From a virus: DNA of 30,611 nucleotides. The position numbers and the translations under genes are program-made. This document shows positions 7,401 through 20,187 of the stretch, one piece after another; positions within the stretch are counted from its first letter, which is position 1, and the number at the start of each line of letters is the position of its first letter. The notes below the pieces were generated by a model that was not told where the DNA came from, did not search any database, and saw nothing but the letters and a program-made list of their open reading frames with translations. The stretch is taken from IMG/VR virus record IMGVR_UViG_3300021137_000063, positions 1-30,611 of that record. One strand, 5' to 3'.

Positions 7401-10400
7401 CAACAAACGGAATGCTAATTAGAGTACGATCCGTTGCAATCGGTTTTAACACCCCATCGGAATTAGGAATAAATATAGGTTTGTATCCTAATGCAGATAG
7501 TCCGTTGGATGTGAAAATACGATCAATTGCTTTTGTAATCTGCTGCTGCCATGATATTACAGCATTTGTATCCGGATCAAACGCTGGAGTTTCTCCAGCG
7601 TTAATAACAATGCCATCATCTTGCATATATTCTACATAACCAACAATAAAATCGATAAGCGGTTGCACTCCAGTAACGAGAATAGACTCTGCAAAGTTAA
7701 ACGACTGTGAAGAACGGCGATCCACCTCAACTGTTTCCCAATTAAGATTTCCAGCAGTAAACGTAGCTTTGACTGTTCTAAATTGGATTACCCCAATCAA
7801 GAGGTTTCCAAAATCAATCGGATTTGTACCCGCGACAGCATCGATTGCAGTATTGTATAGTCGAATTACACCATTTGCTCTGCTAATGTAGAACGAGTTG
7901 ATTAAGATTGATGGGGGAGGATTCACAATCTGTAACTGTTCTCCATCGAACCAACGTAGTTGAGTATCTGCAACGTCAGCAATATCAAATGCCAACGTAG
8001 CTGCATTCCATACAAAACCTTGCTGTAAGCTGTTGTATTTTTGTCGAACAGTCGGATCAGACTCACTGCAAGTTAAATTGAATATCCAATTTTCACCTCG
8101 GCCAGTGGAAGTTATGGTAGAGTCGATTGAGTTTAGAGTTACGATGATATTCGAAAATCTAATTTTTCGAACATTCTCACTTTTCTTTAATACCACACTA
8201 TATTCATTCAGATCGTAACAGTCTTGGTACACCTTGAGAGTCTGCGGAACGATTAAGCTGTTTGTTTGATATGCAAGTCGGGTAGACCAGGATTTCCACG
8301 CATATAGCGGTGAATTATTGTGCGATGAAAAGTTGTTGTGTCGTGCTAAGAACGTAAGAGCAGCAAATATCGTGGTATCAACTATTCCGTTTTCGCCGTG
8401 AAGAGGATCAGTATTTTTAGCAACATCGTTTGTGCGGGCATTAACTGATAAGCCAGCTAACATTCTGCGATTGCGATTGGTAAGCTTTGTTACAACAACA
8501 AGAGGATCTACTTGATATGCTGCGACTAGTCCCCGAGAAATACTCGTCTCATTAGTCTTCCAAATGTTTTCAATAAAACTACCTTGACTGAGTGTTGTTG
8601 GAAATATGCTGTACGCACCAAGATATTCAGTTGGATTGATCGAGTTTGCTGCAGATATCAGTACTATATTAACACCATTCGTTACTGAATAGTCCAGTAG
8701 AGCTGGATAGGTAGTAGTATCCAGGTACGGAGGAAGTAAATCATCTGGTGCGTACCCACCGATAGTAACACCAGATGTATTAACCGGGATAACAGCTGGT
8801 GCAACAAGTTGATGAGGGTTTCCTGTTCCTACTGTGTTATCTTCAAGCAATTTAGTGTAAGGAACAATTCCATTTGCGATGTTACTCCACATCGTGGTAG
8901 ACCAATATCGAGTGCCAGATACATCAAGATACTCAGAATCCCACCAGATTGGTTTATCAATCTGACCTTGTAGCTTCCAAGGTTGTTTGTGTGGGATTGG
9001 TGTATTGTACAAGTTGGTATACAATTCAAACACTGAATTCGCCCATTGTTGGGAATCGATACTTCCCCAGTTGATATTCACTAACTGGACATTACCGTAG
9101 TACCAAGTAAAGGGATCTGTAGCTGATGGTGCAGATAATAATCGACTAGTTAACTGCGTGTTAGTTGCTTGAGAATATTGATATGCAAAACTAGCGTACG
9201 AAGATGCAATAATAGCGTCATACTGAGTAGATGCCGTTGGTGCGACATCAATTATAGATAGGCTACGAGTGCGTATTAATGCAGCAATCTCGCGTTCCTG
9301 AAGTGCAAATACTTCTAAAATTAAACTGGATACGTCGAATAGTACCCAAAGTGTACTTACCACAATACCGTGCCAGTACGCACCTGTCCAAACGGACGCT
9401 GTTGGCGGTACTGGGGGCGATGCGTTAAGATTACCAGGATTGAACCAAGTTCTGCCGGCAATAGGAGCTGTTGGGGTAGATGTCGAAAAATAGTAACATT
9501 CAAATCGGTACGTTAATGCTGGGTTCTTTCTCCATACGCAGTAATTGGTTAGCGGAGTTGGAAAGATCGACCCTACCGCAATTGAAGTTGATAATGCAGT
9601 TTCCATTCCAACTGTTGCTGTTGGAGATATTGTAATATTGTAACGAGATCCATCGTGAGTAACAATAGAGGCGTGGTTGAGCTTTCGATCGGATTCAACG
9701 CTAATAGCACTCAGAGTACACAGTCCGAGAATGCCAAACGTTAAAGGAAAACTAGGGTACCCGAGATCGTCGTTTGCATCATACGACAATGTGTCACTAT
9801 ACACAGAATCTGCACCACCTGCATGCAGTGTTGCTGTTCTGAGTGAATTGTACACTAGTTGTGGGATATCCGCAACTGCTGTTACCGCAAGATTGGGGGT
9901 ATTGAGTAGTTGAATTTTTATTTGTTGCTCGAGCTGCAATCGAAACGTATACAACTCACTCGCAATAAAATTAGCAAGCGATGGGATCGATAGGTTATCA
10001 GCGATTGCCGACGACATTAAGTAATTGCCACCGTCGTCGGATATTCTAATGGTGCCCGGAAGGTTATCAGCCAGATTTTGAAAGTGGTTAATTACTTGAC
10101 TAAATGTGAAGGTAGACCGGGTTTCACGAAGTGGGTTATCGGTTAAAAGTCGAGATGGCTCCCAACCACCCGGAATAGTGAAATCTGACTGAGGGGTACG
10201 AGTAGCATCAACATACGATGGAATATGCGTTGACCGTGTTTTCCAAACGGTAAAATGTTCATCTGCTATAGGTGAATTACTTCTATACGATAGTAGAGCA
10301 CCAGTAGGGGAAACTAAATCTAACACAAACGGTAAATCAACAGAGTTGGTTACAACACGTTGGCCAAGTACTGCATCGATCGACTGGGCTGAATCTTGGG

Positions 10401-14549: not shown

Positions 14550-14556
14550 TATTTAT
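14550..14556 (-). promoter_or_regulatory. Late promoter motif ATAAATA before gp6-like gene
   Basis: Minus-strand ATAAATAGC overlaps the TAA stop of the gp25-like gene and lies 22 bases before the gp6-like ATG. The leader between also holds a small palindrome, CACTAAGTG (14539-14547). Confidence 0.5.
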
Positions 14557-14921
14557 TGGAACGACAGATTTAAAATAAACGGCTCGGTGACATTTAGTTC
14601 AACGTAATGTAGATCTGCTTGTGCTAGAATTAAGCTGTTTTCGGGGACTGGAGTAACCAGTAGACTTTTAAGTAGTACTCTCGGATCTGATGCAAATACG
14701 TACGTTAAATCTTCAGTAATAACATCAACAGCACGCTGATCGATCTGTTCAAACAACAATCCAGGGATACGAGTGCCAAATGTGGTCATATTAAGCCTTT
14801 CGCCACGTGAAGTGTAGATGTGAGTCAATAGGTTTAATTTGACTAGATCCAAATCAGTTATTTTGGTGGTACCAGTAGATTGGTACTGGTGGAGGGAAAA
14901 CCCTCGATATAACGCACGCAT
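14553..14921 (-). CDS. Baseplate wedge protein, gp25-like
   Basis: A 122-residue protein of the gp25 family, close in length to T4 gp25 (about 130). The diagnostic part is the central segment GERLNMTTFGTRIPGLLFEQ (about 56-75), where gp25-type proteins have a conserved GER...FG(S/T) followed by a LLFE-type helix. The N-terminus starts with DLDLVKLNLLTHIYT-type residues typical of the fold. In contractile tails gp25 sits at the wedge core and helps nucleate the sheath. It is the first gene of the leftward virion operon, with an ATAAATAC late motif 26 bases before its ATG and a gene-free segment upstream. Confidence 0.9.
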   Translation of the reverse strand: MRALYRGFSLHQYQSTGTTKITDLDLVKLNLLTHIYTSRGERLNMTTFGTRIPGLLFEQIDQRAVDVITEDLTYVFASDPRVLLKSLLVTPVPENSLILAQADLHYVELNVTEPFILNLSFQ

Positions 14922-14947
14922 CAGGTAGGTATCCAGATAGTATTACG

Positions 14948-14954
14948 TATTTAT
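14948..14954 (-). promoter_or_regulatory. Late promoter motif ATAAATA at head of baseplate operon
   Basis: Minus-strand ATAAATACG lies 26 bases before the gp25-like ATG, matching the spacing of the plus-strand site before the nucleotidyltransferase. It is the best candidate for the main leftward late promoter. Confidence 0.65.
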
Positions 14955-15511
14955 TCATTTGGTAGACTTCGTCAAGTACTAGCGACATTTCAGCTATTCC
15001 TTTCAGTCATAGCTTCATATCACTCGAACTTACTCTTAGTTAAGCAAGTAATCAGATGGAAACTAAGTGCAGATTAGGTGTAATGAAGGTAGCTTCATCC
15101 CCCCTGACGGGCAATGGGTGCAGTCCGGGCAAAAATTTGCCAGTTGGTAACAAAGTAGAGATAAAGAGATTTGGATAAAGATAGAATACTTGTTGGTTTT
15201 TGCAGTTAAGTTCAGTACATTGCATACTGCTGCATCAGAAAGGTCAGTTGTTCAAACACGGCCTGGGGACAGGTCCGCCACTGTTGCTATCTGAGTTTAC
15301 AGGGTTGTTTGATACGGTTTATGAGCTCATTCTCAAGCTCCTGCAATAGGATATGCTCCTACAATACAGCTGTGTTATTTCACACAGTTTCGTAATCATC
15401 ACCTGAAAGCTGCCTCGCCACTAACGATGTCGCAGACTTCTGGAATGTCCTAATTTTAACAAGTATAAGAAGCAATAAGAAGGTTTGTACGGTACCAACA
15501 AACTGATGATG
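14955..15511. other. Gene-free segment with many inverted repeats; candidate structured RNA
   Basis: No supported protein gene lies here. The segment contains at least eight short inverted repeats: 14992-15014 (AGCTAT/ATAGCT), 15083-15098 (ATGAAG/CTTCAT), 15128-15141 (GGCAAA/TTTGCC), 15213-15229 (CAGTA/TACTG), 15260-15276 (CCTG/CAGG core), 15323-15340 (GAGCT/AGCTC), 15347-15361 (TAGGA/TCCTA) and 15370-15387 (CTGTGT/ACACAG). A weaker one (GTTTGT/ACAAAC) lies just past the nuclease stop at 15483-15503. Flanking genes are both leftward, so a transcript from the minus strand is more likely, but G-U pairing does not settle the strand. I could not match it to tRNA, tmRNA, RNase P RNA, a group I intron or a complete riboswitch. 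Confidence 0.5.
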
Positions 15512-16015
15512 TTATTTAAGTAAGTGGAGTAACGATACCCCAAGTACTAACCACTGATTTCCATCAGCTGCTTGATACTTAGAGTACGCGTTGAGCGTAT
15601 TGGCTGCAACACTATCAAAAGGGATACAAAAATAAGTGCCCTTTTTCGGGGTAAGTTTGAAAAACAAACAAGGAGTCTTATTTTTGAATCTTCCATCATC
15701 GGAAACTTGAGCGAGCCATTTATCGAGAGTACTGTCCGAACGACCTTCCATCACAGCATACGGATTCGGTCCACCAGTTGATGCGTAATTTTTACACTCG
15801 ATCGTGTATCGAAAATTAGCTGGAGTCGTCAAATCTCCAGCTAATGTTAGTTTTGCGTGCTCACTAGCACCAGCTTTTTTAAACGCGTTCGATTTGCCAA
15901 AAAACGCTCCTGACGTAGGAGCTCTGCAAAACTCTTGAGTATCGAGCAGGGTATTTAACATTGATGCTACCTCCCGTTCGAATGAATTTCCCTTAAGTTT
16001 TGCTTTGCTAGTCAT
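15512..16015 (-). CDS. PD-(D/E)XK nuclease, Holliday-junction-resolvase-like
   Basis: A 167-residue protein from the ATG at 16015. The frame stays open upstream to an ATG at 16090, but that stretch lies inside the gp46-like gene, and the conserved part begins right after MTSKAKLKGNSFEREV. The catalytic pattern of the restriction-endonuclease fold is visible: Glu15 in the first helix, Asp61 in LAGD, and Glu73-Cys-Lys75 in TIECKNYAS, with RAPTSGAFFG between. This arrangement is typical of archaeal-type resolvases and related phage nucleases. It sits directly after the gp46/gp47 recombination pair, so cleavage of branched or recombination DNA is a sensible role. The exact substrate cannot be read from the sequence. 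No clear ribosome site. Confidence 0.7.
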   Translation of the reverse strand: MTSKAKLKGNSFEREVASMLNTLLDTQEFCRAPTSGAFFGKSNAFKKAGASEHAKLTLAGDLTTPANFRYTIECKNYASTGGPNPYAVMEGRSDSTLDKWLAQVSDDGRFKNKTPCLFFKLTPKKGTYFCIPFDSVAANTLNAYSKYQAADGNQWLVLGVSLLHLLK

Positions 16016-16037
16016 ATTATGTGCGTATGGTGTGCAT

Positions 16038-17798
16038 CTACTTATCGCTACCAACCTCGACGTATGAAAACCCATCCTTTTGTTTAACAATTAATTGGTT
16101 ATCAAATGCATTTGACAATTCGTCTCGGTGAGTAATCACAAAAATAGCTAATCCCTCATCTCGAGCTTTACGTTTTAACAATCGAGAAGCAGCGGAAATT
16201 CCGTGTGCATCTAACCCAATATCAAGAACCTCGTCAAACAATTGAATATTAATTTTTTGATGAATCTTCTGCAGTAGATCCCCAAACGCTAGGGATAACG
16301 CGAAATTTACACGCGCTTTTTGGCCGTTACTTAACATATTGAACGACAACTCTCTGCCAAATTGTGAAATGTTAGCCGTTAAACTTGGTGTGAATTCTAC
16401 TGTATGTGGCAACCCAAGGTTATCAAGGTAGTACGCCATCCGTTCATTCAGTAGTGGAATATTTTTATGCAATAATGCCTTACGTAGGAACGAATCTTTT
16501 TTTGTTAGCAACTTTAACAGGAATTGCTGATGTTCATTTAAAGTTGCTAACTGATTCACAGTTTCAAATTCTGGAACTACAGGCTGAGCATCAATCAACT
16601 CCTGGAGTGTCTCGGTATGTGGGTTGAGTTGATCCTTTAATTGGGTCAACTTGGTAATTAAGTCCGCGTGTGTTGCTTTTAATTGGACGAGGTGATCAAA
16701 ATCGTTAACTGTAGTTTTCTTTTTCGAATTAGCTATCAAACTATCTAGTGTGCGAATCTCATTATCGCACGCTTGAATTTCAGAGTTTAGGTTAGTTAAC
16801 TGATCACTTGACTTTATTAACTGTTCTTGCACGTGTTGACGTTTCTCTGTTGCTCCGTCAAACTCTTGCTTGCAATATGGACATGTTGAATCAGCGAGAG
16901 CGGTAACTTCGTTTTTTAATTCCTTAACTTGTCTAACAACGGTTGCCACTTTAGATTCATGAATGCGTTTTTCATTGGCAACATCTCGCTTCGTGGCACT
17001 GCACTCAGTAATTACCAAATGGTGTTTTCGCTCTTCGTCGAAATTAACATGCTCGATTAATTCCAAATCTGCATTTAGTGTCGAAATATCGTCAATCCGT
17101 GTTTGCTCCCAACTATCTTTACGCATTTCAGTTTTCCCAACTAGTGTTTTGTGAGAAGTTAGTTGCTTCTCAGCTTGTTCGATTAAACGCTTTTGGGTGA
17201 CTAACTCTGTTTCAGTCAGTTTGATCTGCGCTTTAAGAGCTACAGCCTTCTCTGATAGCAATTGCAGATTGAATAACTGCTCAACCATATCAGTCTGGTT
17301 AGATTCGTAGTGAGAAGTGGTAGGCAAATCGAAAAAACTCTTATTTGTAGCACTGTATACCACAATTCTTGAAAATAATTCGAAATCGATGCCAATCAGC
17401 TCCTGGATCTTCTTATTGATATTGTCATTACCGGCTGGAGTTTTATCTTCACCGTTGAGTAATAGTGCGGCCCCGTTCTCGCGATTGCCTTTGCCGCCTT
17501 TGCGCCAACGTTTTACGATTACGGAATCTCCCTTAACAGAGAACGATACTTCACCGTACATATCAATCTTATTGGTGGTATTGATTAATTCATCCTTATT
17601 GACAGAATCAATCACCTTATCATACAACAACCACGTGAGTGCAAATAGAACAGAGGTTTTTCCCTGTCCGTTCGTTGTTCCGCCATCGTCGTTTTTACCC
17701 GTTAATAAAGTAGTGCCTGGTGATTCGAAATTCACCACCGTATCTACTTTGCCATATGACCGAAAATTACGAAATGAGATTTGTTTGATTTTAAGCAT
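16038..17798 (-). CDS. 46: Recombination exonuclease ATPase subunit, gp46/SbcC/Rad50-like
   Basis: A 586-residue SMC-like ATPase, near T4 gp46 length (560). Motifs run in order: Walker A NGQGKTS (43-49), two coiled-coil arms (about 180-300 and 320-400) meeting at a zinc hook CPYC (306-309), ABC signature LSNGQKARV (489-497), Walker B IQLFDEVLD with Asp522-Glu523, and the His switch VITHRDE (His557). With the gp47-like nuclease encoded just upstream it should form the complex that resects DNA ends for recombination-dependent replication. Its ATG follows the gp47 stop by 3 bases, so the two are likely co-translated. All key residues are present. Confidence 0.95.
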   Translation of the reverse strand: MLKIKQISFRNFRSYGKVDTVVNFESPGTTLLTGKNDDGGTTNGQGKTSVLFALTWLLYDKVIDSVNKDELINTTNKIDMYGEVSFSVKGDSVIVKRWRKGGKGNRENGAALLLNGEDKTPAGNDNINKKIQELIGIDFELFSRIVVYSATNKSFFDLPTTSHYESNQTDMVEQLFNLQLLSEKAVALKAQIKLTETELVTQKRLIEQAEKQLTSHKTLVGKTEMRKDSWEQTRIDDISTLNADLELIEHVNFDEERKHHLVITECSATKRDVANEKRIHESKVATVVRQVKELKNEVTALADSTCPYCKQEFDGATEKRQHVQEQLIKSSDQLTNLNSEIQACDNEIRTLDSLIANSKKKTTVNDFDHLVQLKATHADLITKLTQLKDQLNPHTETLQELIDAQPVVPEFETVNQLATLNEHQQFLLKLLTKKDSFLRKALLHKNIPLLNERMAYYLDNLGLPHTVEFTPSLTANISQFGRELSFNMLSNGQKARVNFALSLAFGDLLQKIHQKINIQLFDEVLDIGLDAHGISAASRLLKRKARDEGLAIFVITHRDELSNAFDNQLIVKQKDGFSYVEVGSDK

Positions 17799-18843: not shown

Positions 18844-19452
18844 TTATTCAGTTGTTTGTTCGGTTTTTGCATCGTGCTGGGTAGTATCGGAAGAAGTATC
18901 GAGGTTTGCTTTATCTGTGTACGTGTATGACCCAGAATACGTGTACGAAGGATCGAGGCCATTTTCGATTAGTAGAGCATCTCGTATGTTGCGGTGCTTA
19001 CGTTCTTGATTGAGATATTGTAGGAATGAATTGTGGATGCAACTTGTGAAGTATGCGAATGGATTTTGTGATTTTTCGGGGTTGAAGCTCTTCCACGACT
19101 TAACAAGATTCATTAGAGCAAAGCTCTGCAGGTCTTCGTTGTACGTATAACTTGCATAACTGCCTCGGCGCGCATACCGTTCACAAATCAACATTACCAT
19201 TTTTGCAAGCTCTTTAGTCATTTCGCCTTTTTCGCGACTAACCTTGAATTCTGCTAACAGGGCTTTGTTTGTGACGTATACTCCACCAGCTGTGGGAGCT
19301 GCTCTTAATTTAGTTGCTTCGATTGATCCCTTAAATCCTTCCGCAAGAGCATCTGTATCAGTAATGACTTCCTCAATGATCACATCAGGTAATTCTTCGA
19401 TAATATCTGCAACAGCGACGGGTTCGGTAAGTTTTGTGGATTTTTTCGCCAT
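18844..19452 (-). CDS. 55: Late transcription sigma factor, gp55-like
   Basis: A 202-residue protein, similar in size to T4 gp55 (185). The region-2-like core spans about residues 75-155: MTKELAKMVMLICERYARR, then YTYNEDLQSFALMNLVKSW, FNPEKSQNPFAYFTSCIHNS and YLNQERKHRNIRD. The combination of a helix recognising the -10 element and the PFAYFT...FLQYL...RKHRN run is typical of the gp55 group. The N-terminal 45 residues are acidic and the C-terminal 40 are Tyr/Ser/Thr rich and probably disordered. It is the first gene of the leftward recombination operon, as in T4, where genes 55, 47 and 46 are close. It should direct host RNA polymerase to the TAAATA-type sites found here. Confidence 0.9.
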   Translation of the reverse strand: MAKKSTKLTEPVAVADIIEELPDVIIEEVITDTDALAEGFKGSIEATKLRAAPTAGGVYVTNKALLAEFKVSREKGEMTKELAKMVMLICERYARRGSYASYTYNEDLQSFALMNLVKSWKSFNPEKSQNPFAYFTSCIHNSFLQYLNQERKHRNIRDALLIENGLDPSYTYSGSYTYTDKANLDTSSDTTQHDAKTEQTTE

Positions 19453-19475: not shown

Positions 19476-19504
19476 AAAGTACTCCGTCTCGTGGATGGTG
19501 GCAA
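19476..19504 (-). promoter_or_regulatory. Possible sigma70-type promoter of the 55-47-46 operon
   Basis: On the minus strand TTGCCA (19499-19504) and TACTTT (19476-19481) are separated by 17 bases, 23 bases before the sigma-factor ATG. The -35 is a 5/6 match and the -10 a weak one. No TAAATA motif faces this gene, so an early or middle promoter is expected here. Confidence 0.35.
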
Positions 19505-19513
19505 CGGGATTAG

Positions 19514-19520
19514 ATAAATA
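19514..19520 (+). promoter_or_regulatory. Late promoter motif ATAAATA at head of rightward operon
   Basis: GATAAATACT lies 25 bases before the ATG at 19546. Sequence and spacing match the leftward site before the gp25-like gene. Together with the leftward -35/-10 pair at 19476-19504 it makes this 93-base gap a divergent control region. Confidence 0.65.
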
Positions 19521-19545
19521 CTTAACGAGTACCTATACCCTTACG

Positions 19546-20187
19546 ATGTTTAAAGCATTCTATTTATCGAAGCACGCTATACTGGAATCCCTAAAGGAAG
19601 AACGCGGAGACGCTGCTGATCCGGCGCCACCTGCGGTAGGTATGGTAATTGGCAAGTTTTCTCCATTGACAATCGGTCACAAAAAAATGATTGACCAGTT
19701 AGTGGCAGTTTGCAAGCAGCGTGAACTGATCCCAGTTGTCGCAATCATCGACACGGGCGCACTAAATAACACCGACCGGTTGATGACTGGAGATGAACGC
19801 AAGCAGCTGATATTAGATGCGTACGGATCCGGTATTGAGGTAATGGTAACTGGAAATGCATTTCAGGCGCTTGTTAATGTAAAGGAAACGGGTGCGGATC
19901 TGGGTGCACTGGTATGTGGTACTGATCGTGCTGAAAAATATACTCATCTATCAGCTCAGGTATTTGACCAATCGTACCAACGGCAACCTCCTGAAGTTGT
20001 AACGTTAACTCGCGCAGACGGTGATGATCCGACATCCGCAGCATCCAGCACAAAAGCTCGACAAGCTGCGAGTGATGATAACCTTGTATCGTTTTCAGCA
20101 ATTGTTGGAATGTCTCCAGCGCAAGCTCGTCCACTAATGTCACTACTGCGTGCAAGAATGGAGCAAGATGTCGTCAACCCTTCCTAA
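19546..20187 (+). CDS. Nucleotidyltransferase, HxGH/cytidylyltransferase-like
   Basis: A 213-residue nucleotidyltransferase. The nucleotide-binding motif is GKFSPLTIGHKKMI (36-49), where GxFxP...GH is the family signature with the first His replaced by Thr (TIGH). The second signature is SSTKAR (167-172), matching the ISSTxxR motif. The family includes NMN adenylyltransferases (NadM, NadR), FAD synthetase and CTP:phosphate cytidylyltransferases, and the substrate cannot be told here. I chose the ATG at 19546, because the upstream ATG at 19495 would put the late promoter inside the gene. Its end overlaps the next gene by 20 bases. Heading a tail operon with such an enzyme is unexpected. Confidence 0.8.
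   Translation: MFKAFYLSKHAILESLKEERGDAADPAPPAVGMVIGKFSPLTIGHKKMIDQLVAVCKQRELIPVVAIIDTGALNNTDRLMTGDERKQLILDAYGSGIEVMVTGNAFQALVNVKETGADLGALVCGTDRAEKYTHLSAQVFDQSYQRQPPEVVTLTRADGDDPTSAASSTKARQAASDDNLVSFSAIVGMSPAQARPLMSLLRARMEQDVVNPS

Follow-up and report, generated by a model that had tools for sequence, protein, structure and literature searches.

Few large structured RNAs are known from phages, and what they do is an open question. GOLLD RNA forms an RNA-only nanocage. The packaging RNA (pRNA) of phi29, a structured noncoding RNA of ~170 nt from small podophages, acts in phage assembly. GOLLD (Rfam RF01998) is a large structured RNA of phages and prophages that was reported to rise during lysis, and many of its members are >800 nt long and often located near tRNAs (PMC12286853). 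ROOL is a large, ornate RNA of phages and prophages, of unknown function, that forms an RNA-only multimer (PMC12286853). Jumbo phage CBB was described as having a gp55-like factor, with a TATAAATA-like motif preceding its structural genes (PMC5259590).

The stretch of DNA analyzed here (the window), a virus fragment of 30.6 kb from IMG/VR, belongs to a jumbo-type myovirus. Judged from its sequence and that of its relatives, a gene-free gap in the window very probably contains, on its minus strand, the gene for a new structured noncoding RNA of ~410 nt, from ~15507 to 15096 (15096..15507), with a conserved body and predicted ends. An earlier note on this DNA had suggested a novel structured RNA, and this reading is supported by homologous regions, covariation and the absence of an Rfam match. 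The predicted RNA is like GOLLD in being a large structured RNA of phages, but it is only half as long as many GOLLD members and, unlike these, has no tRNA nearby; neither the gap nor the window contains one. From ROOL it differs in a module layout that is not comparable and likewise in not lying beside tRNAs. With phi29 pRNA it shares the character of a structured phage noncoding RNA, but not the length. Searches with 4227 Rfam families gave no match at the gathering threshold in the window, and none at permissive E-values in the window or in the related contigs L015 and L002 (see below). The same holds for the GOLLD and ROOL models in both searches, and no similarity to pRNA was detected by the Rfam search. 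The best sub-threshold match inside the block was tmRNA, at 7.4 bits and thus at chance level; the earlier note had likewise matched the segment to no RNA class. GOLLD and ROOL are its nearest kind by host and by lack of known function, while membership fails by Rfam model and also by length and tRNA context.

The baseplate wedge protein of the window shares 33-35% identity with its counterparts in Stenotrophomonas phages CM1/RAS14, Xanthomonas phage XacN1 and Pseudomonas phage Paride, and the relatives of its SbcC come from the same phage circle. The leftward gene order is a gp55-like late sigma factor (18844-19452; phrog_234, E 2.1e-29), SbcD, SbcC, a PDDEXK endonuclease (15512..16090, minus strand; PF24608, E 5.9e-22), the gap, a gp25-like baseplate wedge protein (14553..14921, minus strand; phrog_261 and phrog_43), a gp6-like wedge protein and a 2413-aa virion protein. 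A nucleotidyltransferase-like gene (19495-20187; phrog_3041 cytidyltransferase), which diverges from the late sigma gene, marks a switch of the coding strand. The gp55-like gene and the TAAATA sites before structural genes are like T4-type late units (gp55, TATAAATA); different from these, one TAAATA site precedes a noncoding block. The gap was previously placed at 14955-15511 with more than 550 bases. It exists but is slightly longer, 14922-15511 (590 nt), and is bounded by the stop of the PDDEXK gene (15512) and the start of the gp25-like gene (14921).

No supported reading frame was found in the gap, as had been claimed before. The longest start-to-stop ORF has 57 aa and no PHROG match, and a frame scan of the gap and comparison with L002 showed no open frame that is kept in relatives. 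In the RNA core, the window and L002 differ by isolated 1-nt indels at three places, which excludes coding for the RNA block. An unrecognised short protein gene or a decayed gene is thus hardly credible; L002 does have an open antisense frame of 133 aa, but this frame is broken in the window.

A search for DNA-level similarity among 50,697 phage records gave no real match, and single-sequence protein scans with gp25 and PDDEXK gave no relatives. Relatives were reached via a search with SbcC and then by a wider, alignment-based search with the gp6-like protein. The SbcC search led to contigs L002 and L003, in which SbcC is 79% identical and the gene order is that of the window except for an inverted PDDEXK gene. 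The gap block aligned between the window and L002 with 86.6% identity over 342 nt and 80% over 49 nt, starting abruptly at TTAAATAACATC. The gp6-like search led to a second clade (L015, L016 and L018; gp6 50-51% identical), whose gene order is the same and in which gp25 is again preceded by a gap. In L015 and L018 this locus holds a diverged homologue of the block, with its orientation unchanged. Pattern scans additionally revealed partial copies of the same types at the ends of contigs L093, L097 and L106, and five bacterial contigs matched a gapped pattern. The former three contigs end inside the RNA block (L093 1-112, L097 13903-14021, L106 1-101), as expected if the block is the most conserved stretch common to co-occurring strains. 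Two further sets of candidates were discarded: L006 and L092 have 19-20 nt in common with the block, which is chance, and L098-L105 matched the 3' pattern while the upstream motifs were absent. The search with Model R2 found a single copy in every carrier, whereas the complete genomes of RAS14, XacN1, Phosso and Paride and the other viral records searched had none. The RNA family was thus found only in a narrow clade of jumbo myoviruses.

Conservation is confined to the block. Between the window and L002 the RNA core is 86.2% and the whole block 84.0% identical, against 67.8% for gp25, 67.9% for gp6, 70.4% for SbcC, 75.3% for SbcD and 48.7% for the 3' linker to gp25. The RNA bodies of L015 and L018 differ at only 7 positions (98.0% identity), whereas the values are 82.0% for SbcC, 72.1% for gp25, 67.8% for gp6, 63.8% for the 5' flank and 58.7% for the 3' linker. 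In both clades the block is therefore kept far better than its coding neighbours, which include baseplate wedge and recombination genes, and conservation stops at the predicted RNA ends. Where genome space is costly, as it is here, such conservation implies that an RNA is under strong selection. The sharp jump in identity at both block edges in each pair would also fit a recent exchange of the segment between phages, with no selection on an RNA. This reading is already disfavoured and very improbable, as the same edges occur in two independent pairs, substitutions within the block are compensatory in helices, and the versions of the two clades are highly diverged and yet keep the module order and helix A.

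The gap had also been described as rich in hairpins. Hairpins are present, but neither their density nor their energy exceeds chance. Folded as a single sequence, the minus-strand RNA of the gap reached -146 kcal/mol (z -1.5; 11/100 shuffles as good) and the plus strand z +1.1, so that on the folding-energy check proposed in the earlier note the gap alone folds no better than shuffled sequence on either strand. For this reason gap size and hairpin count, the evidence given earlier, were insufficient. The signal above chance is evolutionary, and consists of sequence conservation that ends with the block and a fold that is conserved and covaries. Covariation between homologous intergenic regions, another of the checks proposed, was found: the minus-strand consensus fold of the window and L002 (alifold) had z -5.3, with 0/150 column shuffles as good (column make-up kept, dinucleotides not) and four double compensatory pairs, and the domain A helix covaries between the clades. 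As the four main distinct sequences form two close pairs (window/L002 and L015/L018), covariation is counted on few independent changes.

The plus-strand consensus fold was weaker (energy z -1.9; -3.5 with covariation) and was also better than shuffled, because symmetric stems fold in both strands. This would be compatible with a DNA element, such as a replication origin or a packaging or recombination site, in which the hairpins act in DNA. The position of the block between recombination and structural genes fits such an element, as does the varying orientation of PDDEXK around it, from which it follows that the locus has rearranged. Nevertheless, we regard a DNA element as quite unlikely. 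In each clade the fold is better on the RNA strand than on the complementary one (L015/L018: z -2.1 versus -0.4), the orientation relative to gp25 is fixed, and one-sided asymmetric bulges with conserved sequence together with promoter-like motifs on one strand fit an RNA.

The predicted RNA, all parts of which lie on the minus strand, begins with a 5' hairpin, GUUUGU-UGGUACCGU-ACAAAC (15483..15503), which is invariant in L002 and hence carries no covariation information. In L015 and L018 the 5' hairpin is another one, with covariation between the two. The loop of the window's hairpin contains the palindrome GGUACC, which is kept in L002 and absent from the 5' hairpins of L015 and L018, and which could allow loop-loop dimers. 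A closing helix is formed by UACUUGUU (15458..15465) and AACAAGUA (15187..15194); between the window and L002 it shows a U-A to G-C double change, UACUUGU(U/G) pairing with (A/C)ACAAGUA. In domain A (15406..15440) an 18-nt loop (15414-15431) with the conserved sequence GAC...UUAG-N-GG-N-GAG is closed by an 8-bp helix that has one bulge. In domain B (15300..15405) CAGG/CCUG closes three hairpins (15370-15387, 15341-15369 and 15323-15340), the first two of which, B1 and B2, have a U-A to C-G double change at one pair each between the window and L002. Domain C (15235..15294) is a long irregular stem that follows a conserved UAAACUC and has a G-C to C-G double change. Domain D (15202..15233) abuts domain C and is a hairpin whose 3' side carries a one-sided bulge of 7 nt that begins with AAC. 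The 3' module (15097..15141) consists of a short hairpin followed by CACCC...AGGGGGGAU, and AGGGGGGAU is invariant in all four elements. Two further assignments were rejected. On inspection of the four sequences no conserved start codon follows AGGGGGGAU, which was considered as a Shine-Dalgarno sequence, and a pseudoknot between loop A and bulge D had only 2 shared pairs, by estimate not above chance.

A fold common to both clades was supported by domain A. Its four-way alignment (A11; 45 columns, no internal gaps) was made by sequence alone, without reference to structure, and the 8-bp helix was 100% paired in all four sequences, with both sides changed between clades in 4/8 pairs. Controls in which the partner was slid by 1-3 columns were 33-63% paired and had 0-1 double changes, and the consensus energy (alifold) had z -4.8 with 0/3000 shuffles as good. 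Domains C and D of L015 folded independently to the same plan, with the stem after UAAACUC, the abutting hairpin and the one-sided 3' AAC bulge, although the stem sequence of domain D is largely different from that of the window. When the whole CD domain was aligned by sequence alone with MAFFT, the hairpins were misplaced, and this alignment was discarded; because a structure-fitted alignment was used, the cross-clade pair counts of C and D are weaker than those of helix A. In Sankoff-type structural alignments A, CD and the 3' module each scored above 100/100 column shuffles, and the whole element above 25/25. In an unfiltered covariance-model search with CD of the window and L002 only, the top match in 16 kb was the syntenic site of L015 (E 0.038). 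Since the cross-clade score of 14 bits was no better than the best chance match in a 70-kb mixture, homology between the clades also rests on synteny, the structural alignments and helix A.

A promoter-like site, CTTAAATAAC (15512..15519, minus strand), which is T4-late-like (TAAATA) and identical in L002, overlaps the stop codon of the upstream PDDEXK gene. At the matching place L015 and L018 have the full TATAAATA, where the window and L002 have TTAAATAA, and in each of the four elements the first hairpin follows TAAATA at a distance of 2-10 nt. In the clade TAAATA is enriched 17-fold 10-60 nt upstream of genes, as expected since a gp55-like sigma factor is encoded. Promoter use at the block is called putative here because the TAAATAA form of the window and L002 is found in 0/17 gene-upstream TAAATA sites. 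The block does not depend on read-through from the upstream gene: it keeps its place and orientation in L002 and L015, where this gene is inverted.

The block could alternatively be a cis-acting leader of the gp25 baseplate operon, i.e., a structured 5' UTR of a long transcript that controls the wedge genes. It is directly upstream of gp25 on the same strand in all four genomes, and no intrinsic terminator was detected after the 3' module or between the block and gp25. However, the block ends ~175 nt before gp25 in the window, and the linker from the 3' module to gp25 (140-180 nt) is among the least conserved positions (49-59% identity), whereas an expression platform should be kept; a conserved link from the structure to the ribosome-binding site was accordingly not found in it. 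Moreover, in the window, L002 and L015 (3/4) a late-promoter-like site of its own, ATAAATA, closely precedes gp25. In the window it lies at 14948..14954 (minus strand), 27 nt before the gp25-like start; the motif is enriched 34-fold 12-60 nt upstream of genes. Finally, related jumbo phages possess gp25 without the block: in RAS14, XacN1, Phosso and Paride other genes precede it at 16-70 nt. A leader is thus unlikely. Of the options listed in the earlier note, the structured RNA holds and is refined to the minus strand at ~15507-15096, and the gp25 leader and the DNA site have become less likely.

The TAAATA before the first hairpin in all four elements and gp25's own motif in 3/4 favor a discrete, late, trans-acting structured RNA of ~410 nt from its own T4-type late promoter over a gp25 leader, and we assign this reading a probability of roughly 0.65. 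Late promoter use, discrete ends and action in trans are what we infer from the sequences. The RNA would be transcribed late in infection from the block's own promoter, with the 5' hairpin near the start, would fold to modules A to D plus the 3' G-rich hairpin module, and would act in trans as a folded RNA. Our best guess is a scaffold-like or binding RNA, possibly multimeric like GOLLD and ROOL, with a role in late takeover, assembly or lysis. More tentatively, it may represent a class of large late phage RNA that is new and has no relation to GOLLD, ROOL or OLE, an RNA machine or RNA-only assembly in this branch of jumbo myoviruses with the strongly conserved 18-nt loop of domain A and the invariant AGGGGGGAU 3' module as its working parts. 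The locus, strand, approximate ends and helices are defined, and four sequences are available for building a family model.

The surroundings of the block showed two further features. In the window the PDDEXK gene shares its strand with SbcC; it is inverted in L002 (7762-8367) and L015 (6180-6677), and its protein is just 34-36% identical between the window and the other phages; this inversion and low identity beside the RNA block represent a local rearrangement or replacement. Just upstream of the RNA block, L002 contains a near-perfect inverted repeat (8444-8503; TGTACTAAATAGCGGTCA ... TGACCGCTATTTAGTACA) with sub-threshold, miRNA-like Rfam scores, and each of its arms carries the late-promoter-like hexamer in the form TAAATAG, one per direction.
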